From Planotetraspora kaengkrachanensis (lineage in GTDB: Bacteria; Actinomycetota; Actinomycetes; Streptosporangiales; Streptosporangiaceae), in assembly GCF_016862895.1 (NCBI RefSeq), contig NZ_BONV01000037.1, positions 62,001 through 126,000 of the forward strand: 64,000 nucleotides of DNA, read 5' to 3'. The notes under the pieces were generated by a model. The model saw only the letters and a program-made list of their open reading frames with translations. It searched no databases and had not been told where the DNA came from. Position 1 is the first letter of the stretch. Every line of letters starts with the position of its first letter. Both the position numbers and the translations under genes were made by a program. Below, one piece after another: positions 14,886-64,000 of this stretch.

Positions 14886-14917
14886 GTAAGGATTACCTAA
14901 CTTGGGAAGGCGAGTAC

Positions 14918-15532: not shown

Positions 15533-15537
15533 GACGT

Positions 15538-15590: not shown

Positions 15591-15611
15591 GCTCCCCGGG
15601 CCGGCGGCGGG

Positions 15612-37678: not shown

Positions 37679-37780
37679 GCGGGGGGCTCCTGGGCGAGAG
37701 AACAGGTTGGTTGCGCGCATCGGCGTTCACCGAAGCCGACGCTACGATCGCGTCTCTCGCATCCTCAAGGGGATTGCTCG

Positions 37781-38626: not shown

Positions 38627-38628
38627 GA

Positions 38629-39171: not shown

Positions 39172-39377
39172 GGCTGGGCCTCCCGGTGAAGCAGTAGGAC
39201 GTCGGCAGGGATCTCGACCAGGGTCTCGTCCGGTGCCAGGTCCCGGACATCGGCGAGGGCCTGGGCGTCCTCGACCTTCACGCCCTGGACGACGTAGGTC
39301 CCGCGGTCGGTGAGGTACAGGGCGGGGCACCCACCCTCGTTGGATCCGCCGGTCTTGCCGAGAAACGTTAGCCGCAT
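39168..39377 (-). CDS. Small protein upstream of the DUF6879/XRE pair
   Basis: The 69-aa protein reads MRLTFLGKTGGSNEGGCPAL then YLTDRGTYVVQGVKVEDAQA. GAGGAG lies about seven bases before the ATG at 39377, and the stop overlaps the next start. Proteins of this kind regularly precede DUF6879 and XRE genes in actinomycetes. No function is known. The three genes form a translationally linked operon. Confidence 0.75.
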   Translation of the reverse strand: MRLTFLGKTGGSNEGGCPALYLTDRGTYVVQGVKVEDAQALADVRDLAPDETLVEIPADVLLLHREAQP

Positions 39378-39572
39378 TGCCGTCTCCTCGTGATAGGGAT
39401 TGCTCGACATTGCTCGCATGCTCAGCATCGGCTGGGCACGAGAGGTCGTCAAGCGAGTGGTGTAGTTATGCGATGAGACAGCGGATAGATCGACATGGCG
39501 AAGCGCACAGCACCCAGCTCGGCCGCGCGGTGACGGGCCCAGCTGTTCGGTAGTGCACCCCGCAGGCCGCTC

Positions 39573-40692: not shown

Positions 40693-40841
40693 GAAGTCAT
40701 CTTCCCTGCCGCGCCACCGGTACGGGCAGAACGAGAGCATTGCCCTCGCGTGATCTCGGTCAGGGCGTTTCGCGTTGCATCCTGACCTGGTCAGGTGCGC
40801 GCGGAAAACCCCGCCGGGCCGCACCCCGCGGAGGGGCCGGT

Positions 40842-46328: not shown

Positions 46329-47015
46329 TCAGTCTTGATTATTTTTAGAAGGGCCTTCTGGGATGTGCCCGGTGATGTCCTCCGCGACGAAGGCGACGCA
46401 GCACTCGCCGGGACGGGCGTCGAGCGCCGCCGTGAACCGGTCCTCGCCCAGGCCGCGAAGCAGGCCCTCGCACATCGCGAGGTTCATCGAACAGACGAGC
46501 ACGGGATGCGTCTCGGCCAGAACGTGGAACGGGCAGTTGCGCAGCCTGATCCGGCCGCCCTCCTCGTACGGCTCGTATCCGCGCTCGGCCAGGACGTCGG
46601 TCAGCGTCGTGTGCTCGCTCGCCGCCGCCAGCCGCTCACCCGTGCGGCGGGCCGCCTCCTGTCCCTCCTGGTCGCCGTCGAGCCGGTCGACCACCTCCGC
46701 CAGGACGAGTGCGAGGGTCCGATAGTCCCGGGGCGGCAGGCTCACCGTCCGCTCCGGCCCGCCTCTTCGATAGACCTTCGCCGGCCGCCCGCTGCCCGGC
46801 CCCCTGCGCTCACCGAGCCGGCGGAAATCCGCCTCCAGCAGGCCGGCGTCGACCAGTTTGTCGAGGTGGAAGGCGGCGAGCGTGCGCTGAATGCCGGCCG
46901 CCTCGGCCGCCTCGTTGCGCCCGACGTCCCGCCCCTGCGCGGCGACGAATCGGTACAGGTCCCGCCGTACGGGATCGGCGAGCACGCTCATCGACTCGAG
47001 GTCGTCGCTCTTCAC
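46329..47015 (-). CDS. ArsR-like winged-helix regulator with cysteine-rich C-terminus
   Basis: The 228-aa protein has a winged helix-turn-helix at residues 1-75 (LADPVRRDLYRFVAAQGRDV with NEAAEAAGIQRTLAAFHLDK and a GSGRPAK wing). A C-terminal domain carries five cysteines (RNCPFH, VLVCSMN, AMCEGL, GECCVAF), a pattern resembling SufR-type iron-sulfur or metal-binding regulators. GTG at 47015 is used. It precedes DUF3291. Effector is unknown; iron-sulfur or redox sensing is a guess from the cysteines. Confidence 0.85.
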   Translation of the reverse strand: MKSDDLESMSVLADPVRRDLYRFVAAQGRDVGRNEAAEAAGIQRTLAAFHLDKLVDAGLLEADFRRLGERRGPGSGRPAKVYRRGGPERTVSLPPRDYRTLALVLAEVVDRLDGDQEGQEAARRTGERLAAASEHTTLTDVLAERGYEPYEEGGRIRLRNCPFHVLAETHPVLVCSMNLAMCEGLLRGLGEDRFTAALDARPGECCVAFVAEDITGHIPEGPSKNNQD

Positions 47016-47192
47016 AGCCGGAGTCTAGGTGCTCCGTCCTGACGGGTGCTCACCTCCGCAGGCACGGGGAGAGCGGATCGTCCGGCCCTATCGTCCGTAG
47101 ATCAGCCCGGATATTCTCGCCTCATCCTGGTGATCGTGTTTTCAACAAACGTGCCGTGATTCGGGTAATGCGTGCGAAGGCGAGATGATCAT

Positions 47193-47996
47193 ATGAAATT
47201 CTTTCGTAAGATCATTACGGATGTGAAAGCCCGGCGGCACATTGAGGCGTACGTCGTGACGCTCGTTGTGGGCTCTTTCGCGGTCGTGTCGGTGGTCGAC
47301 GACATCGTTCCGCTCAGCCTGAAATGGGCGGCGTTGTTGTCCGGGGTGGGACTTCTCGTCTACCGGATCACCCTGCCGGAGGATCGGGACCAGGGAGGGG
47401 ACTTCCTGCATGATCGGGCTTCCTTCGATTCCGTTCCCATTTCCGTCGCCTTCGCCAACGCGCGGGACATCCGGGTCTTCGCCCCTTCCGCCGTGAACCT
47501 GTTGTCGCCGCACGCCTGTGAGATCCTCCGTACGAGCGTGCTGAACCGCAGGGGAGGTTCGGTGCGTGTGGTCATCCTCGATCCGCGTGAGACCGAAGCG
47601 GTGAAGATCGCCTCCCGCCAGCTCGACCAGTCGGTCCGCTACCAGATCCAGAACCTGCCCGGCGCGCTGGAAAGCATGATCGACAGGCTGGGAGCGATGA
47701 GCGGATGGCAGGTCGCCGGCTCTTTCGGCTATCGGCTCTTTCCTTACAATCCGGGGTTCAGTCTCGTGATCATCGATCCGGAGACGACACACGGCCGGGT
47801 GATCGTGGAGATCCACGGCTTCCGCAATCAGTCCACGTTCGCGCGCATGCACCTGGAATTGACCCGCGAGCGGAACGAGCGCTGGTATTCCTACTGGATC
47901 GAGCAGTTCGAAAGCCTGTGGGACGCGGCCGCGGTCACGCAGCGGCCCGCAGTTTCAGAGCAATCGCCCGTAGATACGGTGGAAGCGCCGGACTAG
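47193..47996 (+). CDS. Two-span membrane protein with PLD-like soluble domain, unknown
   Basis: The 267-aa protein has two N-terminal membrane segments (AYVVTLVVGSFAVVSVVDD and LKWAALLSGVGLLVYRI), then a cytoplasmic region with DIRVFAPSAVNLLSPHACEI, GSVRVVILDPRETEAVKIAS and a C-terminal helix (RERNERWYSYWIEQFESLW). The layout recalls a phospholipase-D-like fold, but no HKD catalytic motif is visible. Its last 62 bases overlap the 3' end of the convergent STAND NTPase gene. It may be part of the immune-like locus, but only position suggests this. I do not recognise the family. Confidence 0.65.
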   Translation: MKFFRKIITDVKARRHIEAYVVTLVVGSFAVVSVVDDIVPLSLKWAALLSGVGLLVYRITLPEDRDQGGDFLHDRASFDSVPISVAFANARDIRVFAPSAVNLLSPHACEILRTSVLNRRGGSVRVVILDPRETEAVKIASRQLDQSVRYQIQNLPGALESMIDRLGAMSGWQVAGSFGYRLFPYNPGFSLVIIDPETTHGRVIVEIHGFRNQSTFARMHLELTRERNERWYSYWIEQFESLWDAAAVTQRPAVSEQSPVDTVEAPD

Positions 47997-49872
47997 CGGC
48001 GTCGAGGGCGCGGGCGGAGAACTCGACGGCCGACTCGGGACGGCCGAGGAGCGCGTACACGCGGGCGGCCCGCAACAGGACGGGTCCGGTCGGCGGACCG
48101 GCCGCGAGAGCGTCCAGTATCTCTTGCTCCGCGGCGTCAAGGCGGCCCGTGGCCGCGAGGGCCAGCGCACGTGCAGCGAGAATGTCCGGCTGCTGATGAT
48201 CTCGCACCCGGTCCAGGTCGCGCAGGGCGTCCGCCGACCGGTTCAGGTCGGCGAGGATCTGGCCGCGCAGGGCGAGCGCCTCGCCCGACGGGGAACGGGC
48301 GAGCTCCACCGCCCCATTGAGCAGGGGGAGCGCGGCCTGAGGCTGTCCCGAGTGCCACAGGGCCTGCCCGAGGGCCAACTGCGCGCCCGAATGATTGGGC
48401 ACCCAGCTCAGCACCGCCTTCAGCCGGTCGATCGCCTGCGGGTAGTCGCCCTGGGCCAGCCAGAGCCGTCCGTCCGCGGTGAGCGCCTCGGCGACGGCGT
48501 CGTACTGCTGGAGACTGGCGGAAATGCCCGCGGCCTTCTCGAAATGATCCTTGGCCCCCTCGACGTCGCCGCTCGCCGCGGCCACCTCGCCGAGGATCAG
48601 TTGCGCCTCACCCTCCACGTGGACGTCGTCGAACGACGACGCGCGCACTGCCTCGTCCGTCAGCCTCCGCGCCGTTTCGAACTCCCCGCGTCCGAGTGCC
48701 AGACGAGCGTCGTCGAGGTAGTTCCTGGGCGGAGCGGCGGTTCGGACAGCGCTGATCAGCCGGTCGTGTTGCAGTTCGTACCAGCGGATCCCGAGCCGGT
48801 GCTCGCCACGCAGTATGTGCCTGTCCTCGAGGGCCGCGGCGATCTCGTTGGGCATTCCAGCGGTCTCGTGCAGGCCCTCGTAGACGGTGTTGCGGGTGCC
48901 GTGGTCGGTGACGAAAGAAGTCCGCAGCCAGTGCTGGAGTTCGCCCGGGGTACGGCCATGTTCGGCGGCCACCCGCTCGAGCGCGCGTCGGCAGAACCCG
49001 ACCAGGAACCTGTCGACGTCGGCACGCAGCCGTACATGCTCGACGGTGATCACGGAGATGTCCGGCTCAAGCGACTCCCACAGAGCGGAACAGACCACCT
49101 GGAGCTGCACCGGTTCGACCGTCTTGCCCTCGATCTGCGAGACACGACCGTCATCTCGCGCGTACGTCACGGTGCGCAGGCTGTCGACGAGAAGCTCAGC
49201 GGCGCCGGGTGCGAAAACCCGGTCGGTCACTCCCAGCGGTCGCACGACGGCGTCGAGCGCGGCGGTGCGCGCCAGCGGCTGCAGGGGGAAGCGGGCACGG
49301 GAACCCCGGCCGAGCAGCCGTTCGTGGGGGAGAACGCCGGCGAGGTGCTCCTCGCGGAGGACCAGCAGCAGATGAAGCCCGTCGTGTTCGGCCACGGCCT
49401 CGGCCAGCTGGGCGAGGAACGCGTCCCGCTCGTCCTCGCGCTGCGCGGGGACGTCGAACAGCTCTTCCGCCTGGTCGACGGCCACCAGCACAGGCATCGG
49501 ATCGCCGTACCTGTCCCTGAGCTCCGGCCGGTCGCCGAAGAAGCGAGAGACGGTCATGCCGGCGAGGGCCTCCACCGGCCTGTCCGGCGCGAGGGCCGAG
49601 AGCAGGCCGCGGACGTAGGGGTTGCCGTGGCCGGCGGTCTCCGGGCGGACCCTCGCCACGGGTAGCAGGTCCGCCCGCCCGGGTTCGATACGGGGGAGGA
49701 CTCCAGCCTGCAACAGGGACGTCTTGCCGCTTCCCGACGCTCCGTAGAGGATGGTCAGCCCCGTCGCCTGCCAGATGATGGCAAGCTCACGCGCCTCACG
49801 TTCGCGCCCGAAGAAGAGCGCGTTCTCGTCGGTGCCGAAGGCGCGCAGGCCGACGTACGGCGACGGCGTCAT
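47935..49872 (-). CDS. nSTAND1 NTPase with TPR repeats (copy 1)
   Basis: The 645-aa protein opens with the nSTAND1 signature PYVGLRAFGTDENALFFGRE, Walker A GASGSGKTS (Lys50) and Walker B VLVAVDQAEELF. A STAND-type linker region follows (VEPVQLQVVCSALWESLEP, WYELQHDRLI). From about residue 400 there are tandem TPR-like repeats to the C-terminus. STAND NTPases are switches used in immunity and signalling. The ATG at 49872 overlaps the stop of the SIR2 gene (ATGA), so the two proteins are made together, suggesting a complex. It is a paralogue of the protein at 57840 (same architecture). Function is inferred from family and coupling. Confidence 0.9.
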   Translation of the reverse strand: MTPSPYVGLRAFGTDENALFFGREREARELAIIWQATGLTILYGASGSGKTSLLQAGVLPRIEPGRADLLPVARVRPETAGHGNPYVRGLLSALAPDRPVEALAGMTVSRFFGDRPELRDRYGDPMPVLVAVDQAEELFDVPAQREDERDAFLAQLAEAVAEHDGLHLLLVLREEHLAGVLPHERLLGRGSRARFPLQPLARTAALDAVVRPLGVTDRVFAPGAAELLVDSLRTVTYARDDGRVSQIEGKTVEPVQLQVVCSALWESLEPDISVITVEHVRLRADVDRFLVGFCRRALERVAAEHGRTPGELQHWLRTSFVTDHGTRNTVYEGLHETAGMPNEIAAALEDRHILRGEHRLGIRWYELQHDRLISAVRTAAPPRNYLDDARLALGRGEFETARRLTDEAVRASSFDDVHVEGEAQLILGEVAAASGDVEGAKDHFEKAAGISASLQQYDAVAEALTADGRLWLAQGDYPQAIDRLKAVLSWVPNHSGAQLALGQALWHSGQPQAALPLLNGAVELARSPSGEALALRGQILADLNRSADALRDLDRVRDHQQPDILAARALALAATGRLDAAEQEILDALAAGPPTGPVLLRAARVYALLGRPESAVEFSARALDAASPALPPYLRAIALKLRAAA

Positions 49873-50750
49873 GAGGCGGCGTCCAATCTCGCCCGCAACT
49901 GGGCGCAGAAGTCGGAGGCGCTACCCAGGAAGATCGAGATGTTCCAGCCGTTGAGATAGTGCTCCAGGTAGCGGCGTGCTTTCTGCTCGGCGTCCCTCGC
50001 CCCGCCGTTGACCCTGGGCATGAGCTGGACGCTGACGTGCCGGCGCTGGTTCTGCCGGGGCGTGGTTCTGGCGAGTCCGTGGAAGAGCACGCGGAAGGTC
50101 CAGTCCTGGAGGCTGTACCCGATGAACAGGAGCGGCTTGTTGCTCATCGCTTCCAGGACGACGGGCGGCAGCAAGGAACGTCCCGTAGATGCCGGAAATT
50201 CCACAATATTAACCATATAGGTTAAATAGTCGGATTCGGTGAGCACCATCGACAGTGGATTGCGGCAGTTGCCGTGCAGATGGTAGACGAGCGGGCTCTC
50301 CACGGTCGCTTCCAGCGGAGGGTCGACCGGGTGATTCAGGATGTCCCACCATCGAGAGAGCTCCACCTGTGGCCGTTTGCCCACGCGACGAAGGGCCACG
50401 GCAAGAAAGTCGTCGTAATTGGTGGTGAGGAACGTGGAAATCGGGAGGCTTGCGAGCAGCGAATGAGGTTCGGCCAGGTCTGTCGACGGTGGATAACCGC
50501 ACATGCCGAAAAATCGACATAGTTCGACTTTCAGATCAACCGGATCTCTGATTTCGGTCAACGCATACTGCATGACCCGCGCGAGATCCATGTCGTCGTC
50601 GAACGGATAACCGTACTGATCGGCGTATCGCCTGCTCAGGTCGCGTGCGTTCGGGATCGTCCCGCTGCACGCTCCCGCACCGAGGAAGGGCAGGCAGTCG
50701 CCAGAGCGGACCTGGTTGACCAAACGTCTCCAGTCCGCATCATCCACCAC
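49869..50750 (-). CDS. SIR2-like domain protein (copy 1)
   Basis: The 293-aa protein has the SIR2 core: DCLPFLGAGACSGTI (NAD loop, Gly24-Ala-Gly26), STFLTTNYDDFL with Asn111, YHLHGNCRNP with catalytic His159, and LLFIGYSLQDWTFR. These residues match NAD-consuming SIR2 proteins of bacterial defence. No zinc ribbon of deacetylase sirtuins is present. The GTG at 50750 is preceded by GGGGCGG. The stop overlaps the nSTAND1 start. The precursor gene fxsA lies 74 bp upstream on the same strand. NADase activity is expected from the family and is not shown by the sequence alone. Confidence 0.92.
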   Translation of the reverse strand: MVDDADWRRLVNQVRSGDCLPFLGAGACSGTIPNARDLSRRYADQYGYPFDDDMDLARVMQYALTEIRDPVDLKVELCRFFGMCGYPPSTDLAEPHSLLASLPISTFLTTNYDDFLAVALRRVGKRPQVELSRWWDILNHPVDPPLEATVESPLVYHLHGNCRNPLSMVLTESDYLTYMVNIVEFPASTGRSLLPPVVLEAMSNKPLLFIGYSLQDWTFRVLFHGLARTTPRQNQRRHVSVQLMPRVNGGARDAEQKARRYLEHYLNGWNISIFLGSASDFCAQLRARLDAAS

Positions 50751-50824
50751 GCCGCCCCGCTGCTCTGATGGGAATGTCTCCTTATGACACCCTATCTCGC
50801 ATAAAGTCGGCGATCCGTCAAGAT

Positions 50825-51001
50825 TTATATTTCGGCGCTGAACCCCGCGACAGGGGCGAAGTCCTCGCCGCCGATGATGCGTTGAAGCGCGACACTGAGG
50901 ACGGAACCGTCCACGGTGTCCAACTCGGTCAGCTGCCACCGGCTGACATCGAGGAGGTCGGTGGTCAGCTCTTCGTCTACCAGGGAAACGTGCTCACTCA
51001 T
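50825..51001 (-). CDS. fxsA: FxsA-like precursor peptide (copy 1)
   Basis: Short gene of 58 codons, too short for ordinary calls. The ATG at 51001 has GAGGAGG five bases upstream. The protein begins MSEHVSLVDEELTTDLLDVS, contains a leader helix (DGSVLSVALQRI), and ends in FAPVAGFSAEI, with a C-terminal FSAEI. The FxSxx-COOH family ends in F-x-S-x-x; here Phe is at the right place and Ser is one position early, a variant that also occurs in this family. It is divergent from FxsT at 51163 and is co-directional with SIR2. The radical SAM maturase FxsB at 53689 would act on it, probably joining Phe by a carbon-carbon cyclophane. Confidence 0.85.
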   Translation of the reverse strand: MSEHVSLVDEELTTDLLDVSRWQLTELDTVDGSVLSVALQRIIGGEDFAPVAGFSAEI

Positions 51002-51162
51002 ATGTGCCTCCTCGTAGTGCTCGCCGTAATCTTTCCACGCTCAGCATGTAGTTCTAACATCGAGACGCACCTGTGTTCCCGGTCAAGATCGCCGGCGAGT
51101 CCGCTCTGAATTATCTGGTTATTGCGCGAGGGCGGATCGGCCCGTCAAACGAGAGGTCTCCC

Positions 51163-53688
51163 GTGTCGATCCCGCAGCCCTCGGGGCCCGGACCGCAGCC
51201 GCGCGTGTGGGGTCGCATTCCCCAGCGGAACAAGAACTTCACCGGCAGGGACGACCTTCTGGACAAGGTGCATCAGGGAGTGACGTCCGAGGTCACGGCC
51301 GTCCTCCCGCACGCGCTGCACGGATTCGGCGGCGTGGGCAAGACCCAGGTCGCGATCGAGTACGCATGGCGGTTCCGGCACGAGTACGACGTGGTCTGGT
51401 GGATTCCGGCGGACCAGCTCATGTTGATCAGGTCGGCTCTGGCCGGTCTCGCCCCGCATTTGGGCCTGCCGTCCTCCGCGGCGACAAGCGTGGTCGACGC
51501 GTCCGAGGCCGTGCTGGACGCTCTGCGTAGGGGAGAGCCCTACTCCCGCTGGTTGCTGATCTTCGACAACGCGGACGAGCCGGAGGACATCAACGAGTTG
51601 GTGCCGCGTGGCCCCGGGCACGTGCTCATCACGTCCCGGAACTTCGCCTGGCAGAGCGTGGTCGACACGGTCCCCGTCGACGTCTTCAGCCGGGAGGAGA
51701 GCGTCCAGTTCCTCAAGAAGCGGGTGGCCGCGTCCATCGCCGAGCCCGAGGCGAGCCGCCTGGCCGAGGAGTTGGGCGATCTTCCGCTGGCCCTGGAACA
51801 GGCGGGAGCCCTGCAGGCGGAGACCGGGATGTCGGTGGACACGTATCTCGACCTGCTCGCCAAGCAGGCGGCCCGGCTGCTCGACGCGAACAAGCCCGCC
51901 GACTACCCCCTGTCCATGACCGCCGCCTGGTCGCTCTCCGTGGCGCAGTTGGAGAGCAGGCTCCCGGAGGCCGTTGAACTGCTCAAATGTTGTGCCTTCT
52001 TCGGGCCCGAGTCCATTCCGCGTGACGTCTTCGGAGAGTTGCCGCCTGCCCTCGCCGGCCAGTCCAGGCTTCAGCCGATCCTGAGCGACACGATCCTGCT
52101 GAGCAAGGCGATCCGCATGCTCGGCCGATACGCACTGATCCGCATCGAGTCGACAGGCCGGACGATCACCCTGCACCGGCTGGTCCAGGCCCTCATGCGT
52201 GCCGAGCTCAGCGAAGAGGATCGGGCGGCGTTCCGGCACGAGGTGCACCTTCTCCTGGCCGCCTTCGCGCCGCAGAGCAGTGACGACGTCACCACCTGGC
52301 CGCGGTACTCGGAGCTGCTCGTTCATGTGACGCCGGCGCGCGTGGAAGTGTGTCTCGACCCCGGTATCCGGCGCTTCGCCCTCGGTGTCACCCGCTACCT
52401 CTACAGCTCCGGAGACGTCCACGTGGCCCGCACGCTGGCGGAGCGGTTCGTGGCACGGTGGCGGGCGGACAGCGGGGACGACGACATCCACGTCATGACG
52501 ATGCGGCGCCATCTCGGCAACATCCTGTGGGCTCTTGGCAGTTACCCCGAGGCGTATGAGCTGAACAAGTGGAACCTCGCTCGGATGCGGGAGCTGCTGG
52601 GGCCAGACCATGAAGAGACACAGGCGTTGGCGAACGCTCATGGGGCCGATCTCCGTGCCAGAGGCGAGTTCGTGGAAGCCCTACGGCACGACGAGGAGCT
52701 GTTCTCGCAACACAGAAGCGCGTTCGGCCCTGAGCACCGCCGGACTCTGCGGGTCCAGAACAATCTGTCCGTCGACCATCTGCTGCTCGCCGACTACGGG
52801 CGCGCCAGAGAACTGCAGGAGGCCGTGTTCCGTCGGTTGCGCAGGCCGGAGACGGGATCGAGCCAGATCGAGCTGGTGATCTCATGGAACGGCCTTGCTC
52901 GCGTGCTCAGGTTGAGCGGCGAGTACTCCGAGGCATGCGACGTCGGCGAGGACGCCCATGAGTTCGGCGTCAACGAACTCGGTGCCGAACACCCGTGGAC
53001 GCTCAAGACGGCCAAGGACCTTTCCATAGCCAAGCGCCGAGCCGGACTGATCGACGAGGCCCTGGAGATCGCCCAGGTGACCCACGAGCGCGAGCAACGT
53101 TTGTTCGGTCGCGACCATCCGGACACACTGGCGGCCGCGTTGTGCCTGGCGAACGCTCTCCGTACCCAGGGCCGGATCGAGGATGCTCTGGACCTGTTGC
53201 GGGACGCGGCCGCGCGCTACCCGGCCACCTTCGGGGACGACCATCCGTTCCGATACGGATGTGACATGAACCTGGCGCTCCTGCTTCGGGTCAACGACCA
53301 GGCATCAGAGGCCCTGACACTGGATCGAAGCGCACTCGACGGCTTCGACGCGAAGCTCGGCCGTGATCACCACTACTCCCTTACCTGCGCCATCAATCTC
53401 GCCAGCGACCTCGCGTCGGTGGGAGACGCGGAATCCGCGCGCCGGCTGGGGGAGAACACTCTCGAGCGACTTCGCGTGCTGCTCGGATCCGATCATCCGC
53501 TGACCCTGGCGGGGGCGGCGAACCTCGTCATCGACCTGCGATCGACCGGTGACGACGACCAGGCCGACGCGCTGGCAGAGGACACCTTCGACCGTTACCA
53601 GAGGGCGCTCGGCAGTGATCATCCCGATGTGATCGTGGCGTTGAACGGCCAGCGGCTGGACTTCGACTTCGACCCGCCCGCGCTGTGA
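51163..53688 (+). CDS. fxsT: FxSxx-COOH system TPR protein FxsT (copy 1), NB-ARC NTPase
   Basis: The 841-aa protein has an N-terminal NB-ARC region (GRIPQRNKNFTGRDDLLDKV, Walker A HGFGGVGKTQ with Lys60, VLITSRNFAW, DLPLALEQAG) and a C-terminal array of TPR-like repeats with the recurring DHxxTL pattern (GPDHEETQALANAHG, GRDHPDTLAAALCLANALR). It ends DFDFDPPAL. NCBI names this family FxsT. Start is the GTG at 51163, preceded by GAGAGG. It is convergent with, and directly abuts, the fxsB gene (stop 53688, next 53689). NB-ARC/TPR proteins are STAND-like switches; its role in the peptide system is unknown. Confidence 0.92.
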   Translation: MSIPQPSGPGPQPRVWGRIPQRNKNFTGRDDLLDKVHQGVTSEVTAVLPHALHGFGGVGKTQVAIEYAWRFRHEYDVVWWIPADQLMLIRSALAGLAPHLGLPSSAATSVVDASEAVLDALRRGEPYSRWLLIFDNADEPEDINELVPRGPGHVLITSRNFAWQSVVDTVPVDVFSREESVQFLKKRVAASIAEPEASRLAEELGDLPLALEQAGALQAETGMSVDTYLDLLAKQAARLLDANKPADYPLSMTAAWSLSVAQLESRLPEAVELLKCCAFFGPESIPRDVFGELPPALAGQSRLQPILSDTILLSKAIRMLGRYALIRIESTGRTITLHRLVQALMRAELSEEDRAAFRHEVHLLLAAFAPQSSDDVTTWPRYSELLVHVTPARVEVCLDPGIRRFALGVTRYLYSSGDVHVARTLAERFVARWRADSGDDDIHVMTMRRHLGNILWALGSYPEAYELNKWNLARMRELLGPDHEETQALANAHGADLRARGEFVEALRHDEELFSQHRSAFGPEHRRTLRVQNNLSVDHLLLADYGRARELQEAVFRRLRRPETGSSQIELVISWNGLARVLRLSGEYSEACDVGEDAHEFGVNELGAEHPWTLKTAKDLSIAKRRAGLIDEALEIAQVTHEREQRLFGRDHPDTLAAALCLANALRTQGRIEDALDLLRDAAARYPATFGDDHPFRYGCDMNLALLLRVNDQASEALTLDRSALDGFDAKLGRDHHYSLTCAINLASDLASVGDAESARRLGENTLERLRVLLGSDHPLTLAGAANLVIDLRSTGDDDQADALAEDTFDRYQRALGSDHPDVIVALNGQRLDFDFDPPAL

Positions 53689-56217: not shown

Positions 56218-56308
56218 GGCTGATCACTCTCCGTGAGTGCGGGCGCCTCAGATGGAATTCCAGGATAGGGGTAGATCCGAAGGGGCGTGCGCAGCTGAGC
56301 AATGGTTT

Positions 56309-57784
56309 TCAAACTAAAACGGATTGTCGGCTGTTTTCTATCTGCTTGGTTTTGAGCGCATCGACCATTTCGAGATCTAGGCCGATACGGAGGGACGTCT
56401 TCAAAGGCGGGCGTGATTTGTGGGGCAGCGACCTGACGCCGCTGAGGCGGCGACCGCGCACGAGCCAGGCGAGCGTGGCGCAGACGGCGACGAAGAGCAT
56501 GGCCGCCATCAGGATCACGGTCGCCTGCGCCGGTCCGAAGCGAGTGACGAGCAGGCCTCCGAGCGGGGCGGCTAGGCACACGACCCCGTGGACCACCAGT
56601 CGGTGGATGCTCATCACGCGGGCGACGAGATCTTCGCGCACGTTGCTCATCTCCTCGGTCCGGATGGCCATGTTGCTGATGGAGCCGGTGACCCCGGTGA
56701 GGAGGGTCGCGAGGCCGAACGAATACGGCCGTGGAGCCAGGGCCGCGACCAGCAGCGCGATGACCCAGATCCACACCTGCGCGAAGAGAAGGGGGAACCG
56801 CTGAAGAGACGGCTTCCAGCGGAAGACCCGGGACGCGATGCCGGACCCGACCGAACCGCTCAGGCCGCCGGCAGCCAGAACCAGTCCCACCTCCACGGGG
56901 GAAAGGTCGGCGGAGCTCGCCAGGAAGACCATGATGAGGGCGTTGACCATCAGATTGGTCGCCGCGGTGACCCCCATCGCCTGGCGCAGGAATTCGTTGT
57001 TCCAGAGCTCGGAAATGCCCTGGCCGACCTCACGCCAGAATGCCGGCCTTCTGGATCCGAGGCTTTCCCTTGTGAATTCCGATCGCCGGCGGGACCGCGG
57101 TTCCCGAATGAACAGCAGCGCCACGAACGAGGTGGCGAAGAATATGGCGTTGGTGATGAACGGGATGCCTTTCCCGAGCCCGAAGAGCAGGCCTCCGAGC
57201 GGCCGCCCCGTGAGAACGGCGACGTGCGAGGCGGTCTCGCTTCCAGTGAGTGCGCGGTCAGGCGGGGTGCCGGGAGCTATGGAGCGGATCAGCGCCGTCT
57301 CGGCCACGGCATACATGACCCAGGTCGCGCCTTCGACGAACGCCGCGATCTTCAGGTGCGTGACGCCCAGTTCGGCCCAGGCCATCGCCGCGAACACGGA
57401 GAACGCCGCGATGCCCCGCGCACCCTCGCTGACCAGCATGACGATCCGGGGCGAGAACCGGTCCGCGACCACCCCGGCAGGCAGATACATGACCAGGCTG
57501 GGGACCGTCAGGATGAAACCGACCCACCCGACCTCGGCCGCGGAACCGGTGAGGGCGAGTGCGAGCAGGGGGTAGGCGACTCCGAGCGTTCGGGTGCCCA
57601 ACATGGACATCACGCAGGACGCCCATGTGAACGTCATCCTTTTGTTCCGCGGAGGGCTGGGATGCCCTCCTGTGGGGGTTTTCGCCACGCCGCCTCGTTC
57701 GCCGGAGCTCCCGCTTTTAAGAGGCAACTCAATCTCATCGGCGGCTGCTTGCTCTTCATCGAGCGCCGAACGCGGCTGCGGCAT
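56309..57784 (-). CDS. MFS transporter, possible peptide exporter
   Basis: The 491-aa protein has about 12 membrane segments in two halves. The MFS motif is seen as VVADRFSPRIVML (between TM2 and TM3), with RPLGGLLFGLGKGIPFITNA and GVVCLAAPLGGLLVTRFGPA in later parts. It lies between the nSTAND1 copy 2 (55 bp) and fxsB (91 bp), all on the minus strand, so it may export or import a matured peptide or serve resistance. No ABC exporter is in the locus. Substrate is inference. The ATG at 57784 is used; a later start is possible because residues 1-50 look disordered. Confidence 0.82.
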   Translation of the reverse strand: MPQPRSALDEEQAAADEIELPLKSGSSGERGGVAKTPTGGHPSPPRNKRMTFTWASCVMSMLGTRTLGVAYPLLALALTGSAAEVGWVGFILTVPSLVMYLPAGVVADRFSPRIVMLVSEGARGIAAFSVFAAMAWAELGVTHLKIAAFVEGATWVMYAVAETALIRSIAPGTPPDRALTGSETASHVAVLTGRPLGGLLFGLGKGIPFITNAIFFATSFVALLFIREPRSRRRSEFTRESLGSRRPAFWREVGQGISELWNNEFLRQAMGVTAATNLMVNALIMVFLASSADLSPVEVGLVLAAGGLSGSVGSGIASRVFRWKPSLQRFPLLFAQVWIWVIALLVAALAPRPYSFGLATLLTGVTGSISNMAIRTEEMSNVREDLVARVMSIHRLVVHGVVCLAAPLGGLLVTRFGPAQATVILMAAMLFVAVCATLAWLVRGRRLSGVRSLPHKSRPPLKTSLRIGLDLEMVDALKTKQIENSRQSVLV

Positions 57785-57839
57785 GGGGAGAATTTAGTGA
57801 GCGAGGATCGCTTCTGATGGTGATTTGATCAAATCTGTT

Positions 57840-59837
57840 CTATAGGCTTAACTGATTCGCCACCTTCGCCACATGTGGTGGGAGCCCCGGCTGCGCGGTC
57901 GATCGGCGGGCGCGGCTCGCGAGTTGTGCCGCCTTCTCATGCTGACCGTCCGACTTCAGGACGCGAGCGACACGGAGAAGGACGGCCGGGTCCTGTTCCC
58001 TGTCGGTCGGCGGAACGAGCCGCATGGCCTCTGAGACGTCGCCGTTCATCGCCAGGGCCAGGGCGTACGCGGCCCGGGTCGACGGCAGATGGTGGGGAAG
58101 AACGCGCTCGAGGTCCTGGATCGCCTTCCCGGCCTCGCCGAGATCGGCGTACATCTCGCCTCGCGCTCGCAGCGCCTCGGCGGTGTTCCCCTCGAGGTTC
58201 AGCGCGTTCCCCAGCACATCGAGGGCCGCGTTCGCGCGTCCGCTGTGCCACAGAGCCCAGGCCAGGGTGGTCTGGACGCCGAGGTCGGCGGGATTCTGCC
58301 GGACGGCCGCGCGAAGCTCGCTCAGGGCGGTCGCGAGGTCTCCCTGACGCATGCACAGCCGCGCTATGGCGGTGAGGAGTGCCGCGATCGCGCCGTCCGT
58401 GCCCCGCAGCGAGGCGAAGAGTTGAACCGCGGACCGGTAGTGCGAGATGGATTCCCGGGCATTCCCCGCGAGGTCGTAGATGTTGCCGAGGAACGACTCG
58501 ATCTCGCCCTGGAGACGGGTGTCGGTTCCGATGTGGCGGAGCGCCTCTTCCGCGTGTTTAGCCGCGAGCCCGAACTGGCCCTCGCTCATGGCCAGTTCCG
58601 CCGCGCGAAGGTACTCGGTGGGATCCGATCGCTCGTCTCCGCGTTTGATCGGTCCGCCGCGCAGAAGCGGCTGGATGAGCCGGTCGTGCGACAACTCCAC
58701 CCATCCGCCCACAGGATCCTCCTCGATCCGGAGAATGTGGCGGTCGGCCAGCGCCCGGATGACCGCGTTCGGAAGACCTGAGGTCTCCGTCATGCCCCGG
58801 TAGACGATCTCCCGGGTGCCGAGGTCGTTGATGAAGATCTGGCGCAGCCGGAGGCGGAGCTTCTCCGTCTCCCCATTGAAATGATCACCGGCCACTTCGT
58901 CGATCATCTGGTCGCAGTAGTCGGCGAGGGTCCGATCCACATTCGACGCCCTGACGTCGTCGATCGTGATCACGTCGTGGTCGTCCGGCAGGGACCGCCA
59001 CAGTTCGGCGCAGACCACCTGGAGTTGCACGGGCTCGACCGTGTCGCGGATCTCGACGACCTTCTGGCTCACCGGCCTGCCCAGCCGTACGGTGCGCAGA
59101 TCGTCGACCAGTGCCTCGGCCGCTCCGGGGGCGAAGGAGCGTTCCGTCTCCTCCAACGGGCGGCGACACGCGTCCAGGGCGGCCGTGACGGTGAGGGCGC
59201 CGACCGCGAAACGTCCGTGACCGATCGCGGCCAGCCTGTCGCCGTATTTCAGCACCGACGCGAGATGGTCGTCGCTGACCGCGACCAGGAGGCGGGCGTG
59301 CGGGTGGCTGTCCAACGCCGCCGCGAGTTGGGCGAGGAATCCCTCGCAGTGGTGCCTTCGCCGTCCGAAGTCGGCGAACAGGTCCTCCACCTGATCGATG
59401 ACGAGCATGGTCAGCAGCGGGTCTCCGTACGGGTCCGTCTTCGCCGGCGACCGTCTCAGGAATTCGGTGATCGTGATGCCCGCGATCTGGGTCGGCGGTG
59501 TGAACGGCGCCCAGGAGGACAACAGGGCGAAGACATGCGGGTTGCCGCCGTCGGGGAGGACCGCGGTGGGGACCGTCATGCCGCGTGACAAGCGGCCGAC
59601 GGGCAGCACGTCCGTCTTGTTCGGATCCAGCAAGGGGAGCACACCCGCATGGATGAGGGAGGACTTCCCCACACCGGAGGCTCCGTGGAGAATCGTCAGC
59701 CGGTTCGCCTGCCACAGGTCGGAAAGTTCGTGCCTCTCCCGGTCTCGGCCGAAGAACAGGTGACTGTCCTCACGCAGGAAGGGGCGCAGGCCCACGTAGG
59801 GGTCCCTGGTGTGATGAGCTCTGCCGCTGGTCTCCAT
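57840..59837 (-). CDS. nSTAND1 NTPase with TPR repeats (copy 2)
   Basis: Paralogue of the 47935 gene, 665 aa. It has PYVGLRPFLREDSHLFFGRD, Walker A GASGVGKSS with Lys58, Walker B LTMLVIDQVEDLFADF, VEPVQLQVVCAELWRSLPDD and TPR-like repeats from about residue 410 (ALWHSGRANAALDVLGNALN). Starts four bases after the SIR2 copy 2 stop, so co-translated. As in copy 1, coupling to SIR2 implies a two-component switch-effector unit. The trigger is unknown. Confidence 0.9.
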   Translation of the reverse strand: METSGRAHHTRDPYVGLRPFLREDSHLFFGRDRERHELSDLWQANRLTILHGASGVGKSSLIHAGVLPLLDPNKTDVLPVGRLSRGMTVPTAVLPDGGNPHVFALLSSWAPFTPPTQIAGITITEFLRRSPAKTDPYGDPLLTMLVIDQVEDLFADFGRRRHHCEGFLAQLAAALDSHPHARLLVAVSDDHLASVLKYGDRLAAIGHGRFAVGALTVTAALDACRRPLEETERSFAPGAAEALVDDLRTVRLGRPVSQKVVEIRDTVEPVQLQVVCAELWRSLPDDHDVITIDDVRASNVDRTLADYCDQMIDEVAGDHFNGETEKLRLRLRQIFINDLGTREIVYRGMTETSGLPNAVIRALADRHILRIEEDPVGGWVELSHDRLIQPLLRGGPIKRGDERSDPTEYLRAAELAMSEGQFGLAAKHAEEALRHIGTDTRLQGEIESFLGNIYDLAGNARESISHYRSAVQLFASLRGTDGAIAALLTAIARLCMRQGDLATALSELRAAVRQNPADLGVQTTLAWALWHSGRANAALDVLGNALNLEGNTAEALRARGEMYADLGEAGKAIQDLERVLPHHLPSTRAAYALALAMNGDVSEAMRLVPPTDREQDPAVLLRVARVLKSDGQHEKAAQLASRARRSTAQPGLPPHVAKVANQLSL

Positions 59838-59841
59838 CGCC

Positions 59842-60744
59842 CTATCCCATCCGATCCCGCAATTCGATCATGAACTCGTCGAGCGTCCCCCAGTAGATGG
59901 ATATCCGCCATCGTCGATAGAAGTTGGAAAGGTACTCAATCGTCGGCTGCTCGACATCCTCATCGATGCCGTCGTCCCGCGGGCGTCGTTGCACGCTGAC
60001 GTGGGATCGCCGGTTGATTTCCGGAACGGCGCTGAGCAGGCCCTTGAAAAGCTGGCGAAAGGTGGTGTCGCGCAACCCGTAGCCGATGAAGAGCAGGGGC
60101 TTCGTCGTGAGCGCCGCCTGGATGGACGGTGGCAGGATCGCCCGATCGGCCGCCAGGCTGGTGACGAATTCGAGGTAGTCGTCCTCGGTGACCACGATGG
60201 AGTGAGGCTGCTCAATGGCGCCGTGCAGGTGATAGACGAGCGGCGCCTCCGGCTGCGGACTCCATCCCGCGGCGCTGGAGAAGGGGCCGTTGTTCCGGTC
60301 GATGCCGGCGTTCCACGGACAGATCGCGGCCTGAGGATCCTTGCCCGCCTGTTTCAGCGCCTGCATCAAGAAGTTGTCGTAATTAGTAGTGAGAAACGCT
60401 GAAATGGGAAACTCGGCGAGGAGGGCATGGGGCTCGAGCGGGTCCGAGAAGTCGGGTAAGGGCCCGGCCATCTCCTCGAGTTCCCGGCGGACCAGCGTCT
60501 TCACATAGACCGCGTCGTCGCTGAACCTCATCGTCATGTACTGCGTGACGCGGGTCAGGTCGTACCTGTCCGGAAAGGGGTAATGGTACTTCGCGGCGAG
60601 TTTCTCGCTCAGTTGCGAGCCGGTGGGAAGGCTGCGCCCGCAGGCGCCCGCGCCGAGAAAGGGCGTGCAGTCCCCATGCCGCAACTGATCGAGAAGTCGT
60701 TCCCACTCGCCGTCACTGAGCCGGTTCGGGCCCGGAATTCTCAC
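59842..60744 (-). CDS. SIR2-like domain protein (copy 2)
   Basis: The 300-aa protein has DCTPFLGAGACGRSLP, AFLTTNYDNFLMQA with Asn121, YHLHGAIEQP with His174 and LLFIGYGLRDTTFRQLF. All NAD-loop, Asn and His residues of the first copy are kept, so both copies look active. Start is the GTG at 60744 with GGGAGAG upstream. It is 100 bp after fxsA2 with a hairpin in between, which would favour more precursor than SIR2 message. Confidence 0.92.
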   Translation of the reverse strand: MRIPGPNRLSDGEWERLLDQLRHGDCTPFLGAGACGRSLPTGSQLSEKLAAKYHYPFPDRYDLTRVTQYMTMRFSDDAVYVKTLVRRELEEMAGPLPDFSDPLEPHALLAEFPISAFLTTNYDNFLMQALKQAGKDPQAAICPWNAGIDRNNGPFSSAAGWSPQPEAPLVYHLHGAIEQPHSIVVTEDDYLEFVTSLAADRAILPPSIQAALTTKPLLFIGYGLRDTTFRQLFKGLLSAVPEINRRSHVSVQRRPRDDGIDEDVEQPTIEYLSNFYRRWRISIYWGTLDEFMIELRDRMG

Positions 60745-60817
60745 GGTCTCTCCCGGCTCCCGATCCTGAGACGGGCGAGAGGGAACGTGCCGCCGTGCGA
60801 TGACATCCCTGAGGCAC

Positions 60818-60839
60818 CGAACCCGTATGTCTGGGTTCG
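60818..60839 (-). terminator. Hairpin between fxsA2 and SIR2 copy 2, possible attenuator
   Basis: CGAACCC at 60818-60824 pairs perfectly with GGGTTCG at 60833-60839 around an eight-base loop, five bases past the fxsA2 stop on the minus strand. It would partially terminate transcription after the precursor and before SIR2. Confidence 0.5.
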
Positions 60840-60844
60840 ATCCA

Positions 60845-60991
60845 TCAGATCGCGGACTGGAATCCGGCTGACGGAACCTCGGGGGCCTCCGCGATCCGCG
60901 ACAGGACCTTCTTGAGCCTGTCGTTCTGCACGGACTTCAGGTCATCGAAAGTGAGACCAATGACATCGATGATGCCCAGCTGGTCGTTCAT
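60845..60991 (-). CDS. fxsA: FxsA precursor peptide (copy 2), canonical FxSxx end
   Basis: Short gene of 48 codons, opposite the FxsT2 gene. The ATG at 60991 has GAGGAG nearby. It reads MNDQLGIIDVIGLTFDDLKS then a leader helix (NDRLKKVLSRIAEAP) and ends in SAGFQSAI, so its last five residues FQSAI match FxSxx-COOH exactly (Phe, x, Ser, x, x). It precedes SIR2-nSTAND1 on the same strand and diverges from FxsT2. Length and end match known FxsA precursors. Confidence 0.9.
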   Translation of the reverse strand: MNDQLGIIDVIGLTFDDLKSVQNDRLKKVLSRIAEAPEVPSAGFQSAI

Positions 60992-61161
60992 GCCCGCTCC
61001 TCGCGTCGAGACGGCGTTATGCGTGATTCCGGATGACCGTATTGCTGGATAAAGCGTTCTCTATTTGACATGCCCGGTCTATATACGATTCTGAGACGCT
61101 ACATCACATGCATCAACCTTAGGATCGAAATAACCTGGTCGGGCGCGGCAGGAGGGCTCAT

Positions 61162-63708
61162 ATGAACATGGCGGTCTCCGGGCAGATACCGGATCGGGTT
61201 CCCGTGGTCTTCGGAGACCGGATTCCCGGCCGGAACAGGAATTTCACCGGCCGTGACGAGCTGCTCGAGGATTTACGGCGAAGTCTCGAGACGACGACCG
61301 CCGCGGCCGTGGTCCCTCAGCCGCAGGCGTTGCAGGGCCAGGGAGGTGTGGGCAAGACCCAGCTCGCCATCGAGTACGTGTGGCGCTACCGGGGCGCCTA
61401 CGACCTCATCTGGTGGATCCTGGCCGATCAGGTCGCGCTCGTCCGCGGCGCGCTGGCCGGGCTCGCGCCGCGTCTCAACCTGCCTCATGCCAGCACGGTC
61501 GGCGTGGAGGAGGCGGCGGCCTCGGTCCGTGACGCCCTCCAGCGTGGTGAGCCGTACGGCAAGTGGTTGCTGGTCTTCGACAACGCCGACCAGCCGGAGG
61601 ACATCAAGGACTTCATTCCGCACGGCGGATCGGGTCATGTGCTGATCACCTCCCGCAACGCCCGATGGAGCGGAATCGCCGAGACGCTGCCCGTCGACGT
61701 GTTCTCCAGGGAGGAGAGCGTCGCCTTCCTGCGCAGGCGTCTGAAGCGGGGGATCGACGACACCGCGGCCGACCGGCTCGCCCAGGAACTCGGCGACCTG
61801 CCGCTGGCCCTGGAGCAGGCGGCCGCGCTCCAGTTGCAGACCGGCATCACCGTCGACGACTACATCGAGCAACTCGCCGTGCAGACTCGCGAGTTGCTCA
61901 AGCTGGGGAAGGCGACCGAGTACCCGCTGTCGATGACGGCCGCCTGGCAACTGTCCCTGCAGCAGATCGAGGATCGGCTCCCCGAAGCCGCCGAGGTGTT
62001 GCGGTGCTGTGCGTTCTTCAGTCCGGAACCCATTCCGCACGACCTGTTCCGGCGGGCGAACAAACGAACCGGCGCCCAGCGCATCGGACCGATCCTGGCC
62101 AATCCGGTCCTGCTCACCAGAGCGCTGGCGGAGCTGAGCAGGTTCGCCCTCGTGAGAGTCGATTCCCAGACCGGAACCATTCAGGTCCACCGCCTGGTGC
62201 AGGCATTGATCCGTGACAGCCTGGACGAGGAGCAACGGGGAGAGATCAGGCACGAGGTCCACCTGCTGCTGGCCGGAGGCGCGCCGAGCGACCCGGAGGA
62301 CACCGGCAAGTGGGGCAACTTCGCCGACCTGGTCGCGCACGTCGGTCCGTCGGGCCTGGCGGAATGCGAGGAGACCGGGCCTCGTGAGTTCGCCACGAAC
62401 CTCGTCCGCTACCTCTACCGGGTCGGCAACCTGCAACTGGCCAAGACGTTCGCCGAGGAGTTCCTCCGCAAGTGGACCGAGATGTCGGGGCCGCGCCATC
62501 CCGACGTCCTCCGGTTGCGCAGACACCTGGGCAACGTGTTGTGGCAACTCGGCGAGTACGTGAAATCCCGGGAATTCAACGAAGAGACGCTGCGGATGGC
62601 CCCCGAGGTGTTCGGGCAGGACCACGAGGAGACCCTGCGTCTGTACAACAACTACGGCGCCAACCTTCGCGCCTCGGGCGACTTCCAGAGAGCTCTCGAC
62701 CAGGACCGGATCTCCCGAGCGGCACATGAGCGCGTCTTCGGCAAAGCGCACCCGGCCACGCTTCGCGTGATCAACAACTTGGCTCTGGACTACGTGCTGC
62801 TGAGCGACTTCGAGGCCGCGAGCGGATTGCACGAGCTCGCGTATCTGGAGCAGAGCGGCGCGGTCGAAGGGGTCGGCAAGTGGGACGTGCTCAGCTCCTG
62901 GAACGGCTTCGCGCGGGTGGTCCGGCTCGCCGGAGACGCCCACACCGCCTGTGACATGGGCGAGGAGGCCTACGCGTACGGCGTCCGCGAGTTGTCGCTT
63001 GAGCATCCCCTCACCCTGCAGACGGCGAAGGACCTGGCGATCGCCAGACGGCGGGCCGGCGACATGGAGGGCGCGGAGGAACTCGCACGAGAGGCGTTCG
63101 AGCGGCTGGAGAAGGGGCTCGGCATAGACAACCCGCTGACGATGGCGGCGGCGGTGGGCCTGGCGAACACGCTAAGGCAGTCAGGCGACACCGGGCTGGA
63201 CGAGGCGTTCGGGCTCGCGAGGAGCACGGTGGCGCGCTACGAACGCGTCTACGGCCGGGATCATCCCTTCACTCATGGATGCCGGATGAACCTGGCCCTC
63301 CTCTACCGGCATCGCGGTGACGCCATGCGTGCGCGAGAGATCAACGAGCAGGCGCGGACACGGCTGATCGCCCGTCTGGAGGAGGTTCACGAGTACCCGC
63401 TGACCTGTGCGAACAACCTGTCCAACGATCTGGCGGCGCTGGGGGAGGCCAAGGCGGCGCGGGAACTCGGCGAACAGACCCTGCAGCGGATGCGCACGTT
63501 CTTCGGGGACGACCACTTCTTCGCGCTCGGCTGCGCGATGAACCTCAGCTACGACCTGGATGCGGACGGGGCACAGGAGGAGGCCGAGGCGCTCCGCAAG
63601 GAAACCCTCGCCCGCTATGAACGGCTGTTCCCACCAGGGCATCCGGACCGGGTCCAGGCGGAGAGCGGCGCACGGATCGACTGGGACTTCGACCCGCCGC
63701 CTCTGTAG
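61162..63708 (+). CDS. fxsT: FxSxx-COOH system TPR protein FxsT (copy 2)
   Basis: The 848-aa paralogue of the 51163 gene has RIPGRNRNFTGRDELLEDLR, Walker A GQGGVGKTQ with Lys65, WWILADQ, LPVDVFSREESVAFLRRR, and TPR repeats with GRDHPFTHGCRMNLALLY. It ends WDFDPPPL, like copy 1 (FDFDPPAL). ATG at 61162 has GGAGGG 61151-61156. It diverges from fxsA2 across 170 bp. It is convergent with the partial fxsB2. Confidence 0.92.
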   Translation: MNMAVSGQIPDRVPVVFGDRIPGRNRNFTGRDELLEDLRRSLETTTAAAVVPQPQALQGQGGVGKTQLAIEYVWRYRGAYDLIWWILADQVALVRGALAGLAPRLNLPHASTVGVEEAAASVRDALQRGEPYGKWLLVFDNADQPEDIKDFIPHGGSGHVLITSRNARWSGIAETLPVDVFSREESVAFLRRRLKRGIDDTAADRLAQELGDLPLALEQAAALQLQTGITVDDYIEQLAVQTRELLKLGKATEYPLSMTAAWQLSLQQIEDRLPEAAEVLRCCAFFSPEPIPHDLFRRANKRTGAQRIGPILANPVLLTRALAELSRFALVRVDSQTGTIQVHRLVQALIRDSLDEEQRGEIRHEVHLLLAGGAPSDPEDTGKWGNFADLVAHVGPSGLAECEETGPREFATNLVRYLYRVGNLQLAKTFAEEFLRKWTEMSGPRHPDVLRLRRHLGNVLWQLGEYVKSREFNEETLRMAPEVFGQDHEETLRLYNNYGANLRASGDFQRALDQDRISRAAHERVFGKAHPATLRVINNLALDYVLLSDFEAASGLHELAYLEQSGAVEGVGKWDVLSSWNGFARVVRLAGDAHTACDMGEEAYAYGVRELSLEHPLTLQTAKDLAIARRRAGDMEGAEELAREAFERLEKGLGIDNPLTMAAAVGLANTLRQSGDTGLDEAFGLARSTVARYERVYGRDHPFTHGCRMNLALLYRHRGDAMRAREINEQARTRLIARLEEVHEYPLTCANNLSNDLAALGEAKAARELGEQTLQRMRTFFGDDHFFALGCAMNLSYDLDADGAQEEAEALRKETLARYERLFPPGHPDRVQAESGARIDWDFDPPPL

Positions 63709-63720
63709 GCGGTTCGGGAG

Positions 63721-64000
63721 CTACTCGCGGAAGTCCGGGTTCCGGAGTTTCCACGCCTCACGGTGGGCGGCGGCCTCGGCGCGGGCCGCCGCCAGCGCCG
63801 CCGCCGGCACCGGCTCGTCCAGCCAGGGTGCCAACGTGTCCCGCATGGCGGTCACGAAGGGGCGGCCCTGCTCGGTCAGCGACTCGCCGGCGAGCATCAC
63901 CTCGGTGACCGTGTGCGCCGCATCCCGCCAGTGGGCGAACTCGATGTGCGGGCGCAGATCCCGCTCGTGTGCGCGCTGCCGACGCCAGAAGCCGGCGACG
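63721..64000 (-). CDS. fxsB: FxsB C-terminal part (copy 2), cut by window end
   Basis: The 280-bp part encodes about 93 residues that align with the last part of FxsB copy 1: VAGFWRRQRAHERDLRPHIE, FAHWRDAAHTVTEVM (mirroring FHQWRAAALMVT), and PWLDEPVPAAAL. It ends at a TAG at 63721-63723. The radical SAM and HExxH parts are beyond the window. The 12-bp gap to FxsT2 and the same convergent layout as in copy 1 show that the cassette is repeated. Confidence 0.85.
   Translation of the reverse strand, partial: VAGFWRRQRAHERDLRPHIEFAHWRDAAHTVTEVMLAGESLTEQGRPFVTAMRDTLAPWLDEPVPAAALAAARAEAAAHREAWKLRNPDFRE

Follow-up and report, generated by a model that had tools for sequence, protein, structure and literature searches.

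Short FxSxx peptides encoded together with a radical S-adenosylmethionine (radical SAM) enzyme and an AP-ATPase with tetratricopeptide repeats (TPRs), in some cases also with a TIR domain, have been placed among conflict systems; the accessible text of Kaur et al. 2020 (PMC7159879) predicts for them a peptide toxin or signal that is coupled to an effector. Here, we study a 64-kb window of Planotetraspora kaengkrachanensis (i.e., the whole analysed stretch of contig NZ_BONV01000037.1), complemented by further reading of the same contig (L003). Together they hold two diverged cassettes in tandem, each with fxsA, SIR2, nSTAND1-TPR, a divergent FxsT and fxsB. The cassette is a real and well-conserved variant of the FXS peptide conflict systems, with a strong linkage of its genes and a mechanism that we infer.

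With regard to known FXS loci for ribosomally synthesized and post-translationally modified peptides (RiPPs), the cassettes share FxsB and FxsT above the NCBIfam cut-offs, an HExxH domain and a short precursor with a near-C-terminal Phe. In contrast to the canonical locus with its TIR-like FxsC, they hold SIR2 and nSTAND1, and FxsB is split in cassette 2; no FxsC hit was obtained among the cassette open reading frames (ORFs) scanned. A third fxs locus of the same genome (C54) is canonical: FxsB is accompanied by a TIR-like FxsC, FxsT lies in an ORF of 1603 aa together with a KGGVGR ATPase domain, and no SIR2_2 match was found there. TIR and SIR2 are both folds that consume nicotinamide adenine dinucleotide (NAD), such that SIR2 may stand in for FxsC.

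The peptide modules of the vWA-MoxR (VMAP) ternary systems are alike in their FxSxx precursor, radical SAM/SPASM enzyme, zincin-like (HExxH) protein and AP-ATPase with TPRs, while the AP-ATPase of their FxSxx type carries, as far as the accessible description goes, a TIR domain. No vWA, MoxR or VMAP Pfam match was found in the 24 ORFs (some probably spurious) of the cassettes and their near flanks, and a term search of the main text of PMC7159879 returned neither SIR2 nor nSTAND1. Thoeris ThsA, KomC and other SIR2_2 NAD-degrading enzymes (NADases) provide the closest PADLOC and solved-structure matches and show the same motifs. The cassette SIR2 differs from ThsA in being a stand-alone protein of about 290-300 aa that matches only the SIR2 part of ThsA, and PADLOC reported no ThsB among the seven cassette proteins scanned. 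Avs5 (SIR2-STAND) also ties a SIR2 NADase to a STAND switch, following the accessible text of PMC12931631, while in the cassettes SIR2 and STAND are separate genes, accompanied by a second STAND protein and a RiPP maturation set. The available part of PMC8195603 (2021) names nSTAND1, and SIR2 among the effectors of other conflict systems. The combination of fxs, SIR2 and nSTAND1 was not found in the literature covered (titles and abstract openings, few subscription journals), nor did these sources provide a demonstrated function of FXS peptides.

Recurrence and co-inheritance of the cassette

We screened 249 genomes of the order with a SIR2 profile and obtained 85 places in 51 genomes (86 rows, two pieces of one G080 gene being merged), covering 14 genera under one family label. 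FxsT is located within 10 kb in 83/85 places, with the divergent layout in 79/85, and FxsB within 10 kb in 68/85. The two places without FxsT nearby are a partial FxsT at a contig end (G216 C51) and one place with none in the stretch (G063 C95). Within the 84 neighbourhoods that were fetched, nSTAND1 follows directly downstream in 81 and FxsT is divergent within 3 kb in 80; HExxH is present in 74 and radical SAM in 66. An fxsA-like ORF was detected upstream in 62 of the 84 (E <1), and 7 more were recognized by eye from the C-terminal motif.

A scan of named genomes with the SIR2 pair gave 10 loci (L008-L017; not independent of the 249-genome set) from Streptosporangium, Acrocarpospora, Planobispora, Nonomuraea, Spongiactinospora and [Actinomadura] parvosata. 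All ten show nSTAND1 downstream, FxsT divergent upstream, FxsB, and an fxsA-like ORF between FxsT and SIR2, in one case with residues past the motif. When all SIR2_2 (PF13289) matches of the 51 genomes are counted by hand, 84 of 92 are cassette SIR2 genes, in genomes that were chosen for carrying them. Among 396 genomes sampled from the phylum, for which the best 6 candidates per genome were scored for SIR2 and the best 3 for nSTAND1, cassette SIR2 was seen only in the window's own genome, and likewise nSTAND1; the cassette is probably absent elsewhere in the phylum.

The genes also appear to be inherited together. Using the 58 cassettes that hold all four proteins, we compared the SIR2 tree with the others: of its 32 splits that reach a support of 0.9 or more, the nSTAND1 tree shares 28, the FxsT tree 25 and the tree of the radical SAM protein 22. 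The distance correlations among the four proteins range from 0.86 to 0.94, which includes shared species history, and some splits disagree. Ratios of nonsynonymous to synonymous substitution rates are between 0.03 and 0.43 (44 gene comparisons, 11 cassette pairs), i.e., the genes are under purifying selection. The initial annotation had named a recurrence of SIR2 and nSTAND1 next to fxs genes in actinomycetes as support for a linked system. A linked recurrent unit is indeed what the survey finds, given the proximity to FxsT, the nSTAND1 neighbour and the largely congruent trees, and the adjacency is not limited to this genome.

Both cassettes of the window are homologous and clearly diverged, as had been supposed from the sequence. 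All-against-all BLASTP gives protein identities of 42% (nSTAND1), 44% (SIR2), 49% (FxsT), 60% (radical SAM part of FxsB) and 46% (HExxH part), with the exception of fxsA1 and fxsA2, which show no mutual match at E 1e-3. An old local duplication with both copies kept, as initially proposed, is not supported: copy 1 falls into clade I and copy 2 into clade II (clades I-III were drawn by eye from the tree of the 58 cassettes; the narrowest split around clade I comprises 22 cassettes, support 0.997), and the two are gained or lost jointly as an island. We also discard a recent tandem duplication, since the copies are in different clades and the divergence within genomes equals that between genomes (median SIR2 identity 0.458 within, 23 pairs, vs. 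0.476 between).

Six genomes carry two SIR2 genes 9-12 kb apart, and all six pairs combine clade I with clade II. The window's genome has its pair in tandem, the remaining five show an inverted arrangement; these five come from two genera and may go back to one event. In four more genomes, two SIR2 genes are about 5 kb apart; two of these join an ordinary gene and a fusion (see below), the other two are repeats on the clade II side. As a side observation, L100/L121 and L110/L119 each show two FxsT-SIR2-nSTAND1 units at a distance of about 5 kb, oriented alike, and a single radical SAM/HExxH set in the stretch covered.

In three of four congeners, only about 67-103 bp separate the two flanks of the island (Table 1); for the fourth congener, the flanks are on different contigs, such that the site could not be placed. 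That is, the window pair behaves as one accessory element, by gain here or loss elsewhere. Site-specific integration was set aside, because no exact direct or inverted repeat of at least 9 bp is shared between 46951-47250 and 66251-66500 and no tRNA is present in the window. The shared island with its empty site in congeners would also fit a SIR2-nSTAND1 pair that merely hitch-hikes with the fxs genes. This is extremely improbable in view of the fixed layout, the direct nSTAND1 adjacency and the largely congruent trees across 14 genera, and of the 85 SIR2 places, only G063 C95 is without FxsT in the fetched stretch. On layout, adjacency and trees, we reject chance neighbourhood.

SIR2, precursor peptides and variable genes

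The GxG, TTNxD and HG residues of SIR2 are all intact in 81 of 84 sequences. Both window copies match SIR2_2 PF13289 (E 2e-27 and 7e-29), and PADLOC places them closest to ThsA, with only its SIR2 part covered. The best sequence matches among solved structures are 7uxt, 8wc0 and 6lhx (ThsA), followed by KomC and by 9v0g and others, which are deposited as NAD-dependent protein deacetylase. In the accessible text of PMC12700824, 7uxt is S. equi ThsA, and for Avs5, N110A and D112A in TTNxD are reported to abolish immunity (PMC12931631, seen in part). SIR2 is a likely NAD-destroying enzyme, judged by sequence. NAD-dependent action on the peptide during RiPP maturation (e.g., ADP-ribosylation or deacylation) would be suggested by the location of fxsA next to SIR2 on one strand and by the deposited names of 9v0g and its like. 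We consider this very unlikely, since ThsA NAD hydrolases provide the best structural matches, KomC is called an NADase, and SIR2-less cassettes such as that of congener G060 (fxsA-nSTAND1-FxsT-HExxH-radical SAM) keep the same precursor type.

The three SIR2 exceptions are exactly the three NB-ARC-SIR2 fusions (ORFs of 856-897 codons, Table 1). They combine an FxsT-type NB-ARC domain with kept Walker A and a SIR2 domain that lacks the catalytic Asn and carries Asn or Ala where the His of HG stands. Two of them are 72% identical to each other, the third 40%. In one fusion, HG is replaced by NG, which is tolerated in Avs5, yet its catalytic Asn is gone. Two fusions adjoin an ordinary cassette with intact SIR2, and one fills the SIR2 slot before nSTAND1. 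Such a protein could serve as a scaffold or a decoy attached to the switch; this would argue that SIR2 and FxsT meet.

FxsT passes NF040586 with 1024 and 991 bits in copies 1 and 2 (cut-off 300) and FxsB passes TIGR04269 with 479 and 506 bits (cut-off 370), with CxxxCxxC at residue 34 and 42, respectively. Both nSTAND1 copies match PF20703 (E 2e-34 and 1e-37). The precursors stay below the NCBIfam FxsA cut-off (TIGR04268, 28 bits) with 18.1 for fxsA1 and 13.2 for fxsA2; from four relatives' precursors, two pass the model (49 and 44.6) and two do not (27.7 and 17.4). An FxSxx peptide had been assigned to both cassettes. The C-terminal F-x-S-x-x-COOH is present in fxsA2 (FQSAI) and absent from fxsA1 (FSAEI), where Ala stands two residues after Phe. 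In most precursors, F-x-S or F-x-A is followed by the last two residues: within 62 profile hits (relatives and window), the i+2 residue is Ser in 41, Ala in 12 and other or mis-parsed in 9, counts that are approximate since the automatic parse mis-reads extended C-termini such as FTFQSS and FSQSID. MscB is presumably an enzyme of the FxsB family. It links Phe to the Ser C-beta and HaaB links His to the Ala C-beta (PMC11002830, accessible text), such that an F-x-A core like that of fxsA1 could still be cross-linked.

The profile behind these hits was built from 11 seeds (2 from the window, 9 from the ten named loci), which recover themselves. In a position control over 28,087 ORFs, we found 55 hits in the slot vs. 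8 elsewhere for E <0.01, and 61 vs. 13 for E <1; by our own inspection, the 8 off-slot hits sit in cassette positions.

Five fetched loci have SIR2, nSTAND1, FxsT and HExxH with no radical SAM in the stretch, and in three of them a leader with weak similarity to FxsA (E 1e-5 to 1e-4) is kept. In L125, L126 and L127, two of which are close relatives, FxsA-like leaders upstream of the HExxH gene are followed by a different core with RLWQ, which suggests a joint change of core and modifying enzyme in these loci.

The cassettes vary in their accessory genes. A major-facilitator superfamily (MFS) transporter gene lies beside nSTAND1 in 37/84 cassettes, distributed by clade as 29/33 (II), 6/7 (III) and 0/18 (I; Fisher p = 3e-10 for I vs. 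II, relatedness uncorrected). A homologue of the 267-aa protein from the window is found in 22/84 neighbourhoods, the window's own included. Neither of the two genes is present in the searched stretch of 9/18 clade I cassettes. SIR2 itself lies directly upstream of nSTAND1 in 81 of the 150 nSTAND1 places among the matches listed; the other 69 include distant members and one place with a broken remnant.

These counts bear on the reading of the cassette as a production unit for a secreted RiPP toxin or signal, in which FxsT and nSTAND1 would be regulators and SIR2 would serve self-protection or quality control. The frequent transporter, the 69 nSTAND1 genes among the matches listed without SIR2 directly upstream, and a precursor core that varies with the modifying enzymes are in accordance with it. 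Two STAND proteins plus a ThsA-like NADase is, however, the make-up expected of conflict systems; that these are kept together, and that half of the clade I cassettes show neither transporter nor 267-aa protein, makes the production unit rather unlikely.

We further checked the SIR2 slot of five SIR2-profile-negative cassettes, taken from 20 loci around the split-type FxsB. An fxsA-like ORF is present in all five, in one case on the opposite strand. In three cassettes, only about 300-450 bp separate the nSTAND1 and FxsT ORFs, L136 has another layout, and L138 shows a broken SIR2 remnant at about 14792-15595 between the fxsA-like ORF and nSTAND1. In two of these cassettes, SIR2 is taken to be absent from the profile search and from too little room. 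Another effector in the slot was discarded, with nSTAND1 ORFs of these five cassettes matching only STAND-type NTPase and TPR models.

Gene layout in the window

Feature positions are given in Table 1. The initial annotation was right on the starts of both FxsT and both nSTAND1 genes. Its count of each gene kind twice holds as well, with the correction that the second fxsB consists of two genes that are almost wholly outside the window. Its region start, 47193, is a gene start, which belongs to a further gene (the 267-aa protein) with homologues in other cassettes and no Pfam or NCBIfam match.

Table 1. Positions of cassette features in window numbering, and of fusion ORFs within their own loci.
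Feature	Position	Strand	Remarks
Island, part inside window	47030..64000	.	full island 47030-66403, 19.4 kb
267-aa protein gene	47193..47996	+	two N-terminal hydrophobic stretches (by eye)
nSTAND1-TPR, cassette 1	47935..49872	-	Walker A GASGSGKT
SIR2 (SIR2_2), cassette 1	49869..50750	-	likely start near 50747-50750; TTNYD and HLHG motifs intact
fxsA1 precursor	50825..51001	-	58 aa; C-terminus GFSAEI
FxsT (NB-ARC + TPR), cassette 1	51163..53688	+	
FxsB, cassette 1	53689..56217	-	radical SAM/SPASM fused to HExxH hydroxylase-type domain; convergent to FxsT
MFS transporter, cassette 2	56309..57784	-	directly downstream of nSTAND1, same strand
nSTAND1-TPR, cassette 2	57840..59837	-	Walker A GASGVGKS
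SIR2 (SIR2_2), cassette 2	59842..60744	-	motifs intact
fxsA2 precursor	60845..60991	-	48 aa; C-terminus GFQSAI
FxsT (NB-ARC + TPR), cassette 2	61162..63708	+	
HExxH gene, cassette 2 (separate)	63721-64968	-	3' part 63721..64000 (280 bp) in window
Radical SAM FxsB2, cassette 2	64979-66193 (L003:3979-5193)	-	beyond window, same contig
NB-ARC-SIR2 fusion ORF, L067	7713-10406		
NB-ARC-SIR2 fusion ORF, L068	9482-12121		
NB-ARC-SIR2 fusion ORF, L086	9094-11664		

The minus-strand run of cassette 1 (fxsA1, SIR2, nSTAND1-TPR) spans 51001 down to 47935, that of cassette 2 (fxsA2, SIR2, nSTAND1-TPR, MFS) 60991 down to 56309. In cassette 1, the ATG of nSTAND1 overlaps the SIR2 stop (ATGA), and in cassette 2 a four-base gap separates the two genes, which fits one operon. 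The longest SIR2 ORF of cassette 1, from 50939, would overlap fxsA1.

Outside the cassettes, the window holds another peptide-modification neighbourhood (35854-41196), with a radical SAM-like protein on the minus strand (35854-36996; every NCBIfam match below cut-off) and a methyltransferase on the same strand (39466-41196; 244.9 bits for the ATP-grasp peptide system methyltransferase model, cut-off 380). Right of the island, L003 encodes at 8613-12551 a large protein whose domains are of the AMP-binding, carrier and hexapeptide-repeat types.

Proposed function

From the observed gene content, linkage, co-inheritance, intact catalytic motifs and accessory island, we infer a conflict cassette whose NADase would be under the control of two STAND proteins and coupled to a cyclophane peptide; to this reading we assign a probability of roughly 0.55. 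Each cassette would be a self-contained module for immunity or kin signalling of one actinomycete family. Three products would come from its predicted operon, namely the short precursor, a ThsA-like SIR2 as stand-alone enzyme and the nSTAND1-TPR switch, and the divergent gene would add FxsT (NB-ARC-TPR) as the second switch. FxsB probably forms a cross-link between the near-C-terminal Phe and the i+2 residue (Ser, Ala or Asn), and the peptide may be modified further by the HExxH domain. The switches would sense a trigger via their TPRs, assemble and activate SIR2, which would then destroy NAD and halt the cell. The response may be set or spread by the modified peptide as its ligand or signal, and MFS-bearing cassettes would export the peptide.

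The fusions physically link an FxsT-type NB-ARC with SIR2, the peptide is matched to the enzyme (RLWQ cores where radical SAM is not nearby), and the canonical fxs locus of the same genome has the TIR-like FxsC instead. These three observations speak for the proposed conflict cassette, as do the purifying selection and the MFS gene beside nSTAND1 in 37/84 cassettes. The recurrence of the gene set in many relatives makes it probable that peptide and SIR2 act jointly in a single system of immunity or signalling.

Several points weigh against it. FxsB was found in 168/249 genomes, cassette SIR2 in 51 only, and within these 51, 63/107 FxsB are within 10 kb of SIR2. SIR2 is optional, with 69/150 nSTAND1 places among the matches listed having none directly upstream, and the SIR2-less loci and the remnant argue that the peptide-STAND core needs no SIR2 or uses another output. 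The SIR2 domains of the fusions are dead, such that contact is suggested and not activation. No radical SAM is within the stretch for 18/84 neighbourhoods, some of which are explained by a contig end or by a neighbouring unit that holds it. The MFS gene is on the strand opposite to SIR2 in 25/37 cases, i.e., often outside the operon. Finally, nothing links the cassette directly to phages, and an antiviral role is a candidate only.

A different wiring of the same parts is conceivable, but we regard it as unlikely: the cross-linked ribosomal peptide would be a labile check on the NAD-destroying enzyme, the STAND proteins would monitor the mature peptide or its maturation, and SIR2 would be released once an invader or a stress interrupts the peptide supply. 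This would follow a toxin-antitoxin logic with the RiPP as antidote or licence, and the two peptides on one island might then form two independent channels.

The strict, co-inherited link between an FXS peptide, a candidate NADase of the SIR2 type and two STAND switches provides a testable readout, i.e., the control of NAD by the peptide. Ready-made controls exist in nature, namely cassettes that have lost SIR2, those with a fused and dead SIR2, and those with no radical SAM and a changed core. If the conflict cassette works as proposed, cyclophane RiPPs would be connected to NAD-depleting immunity.

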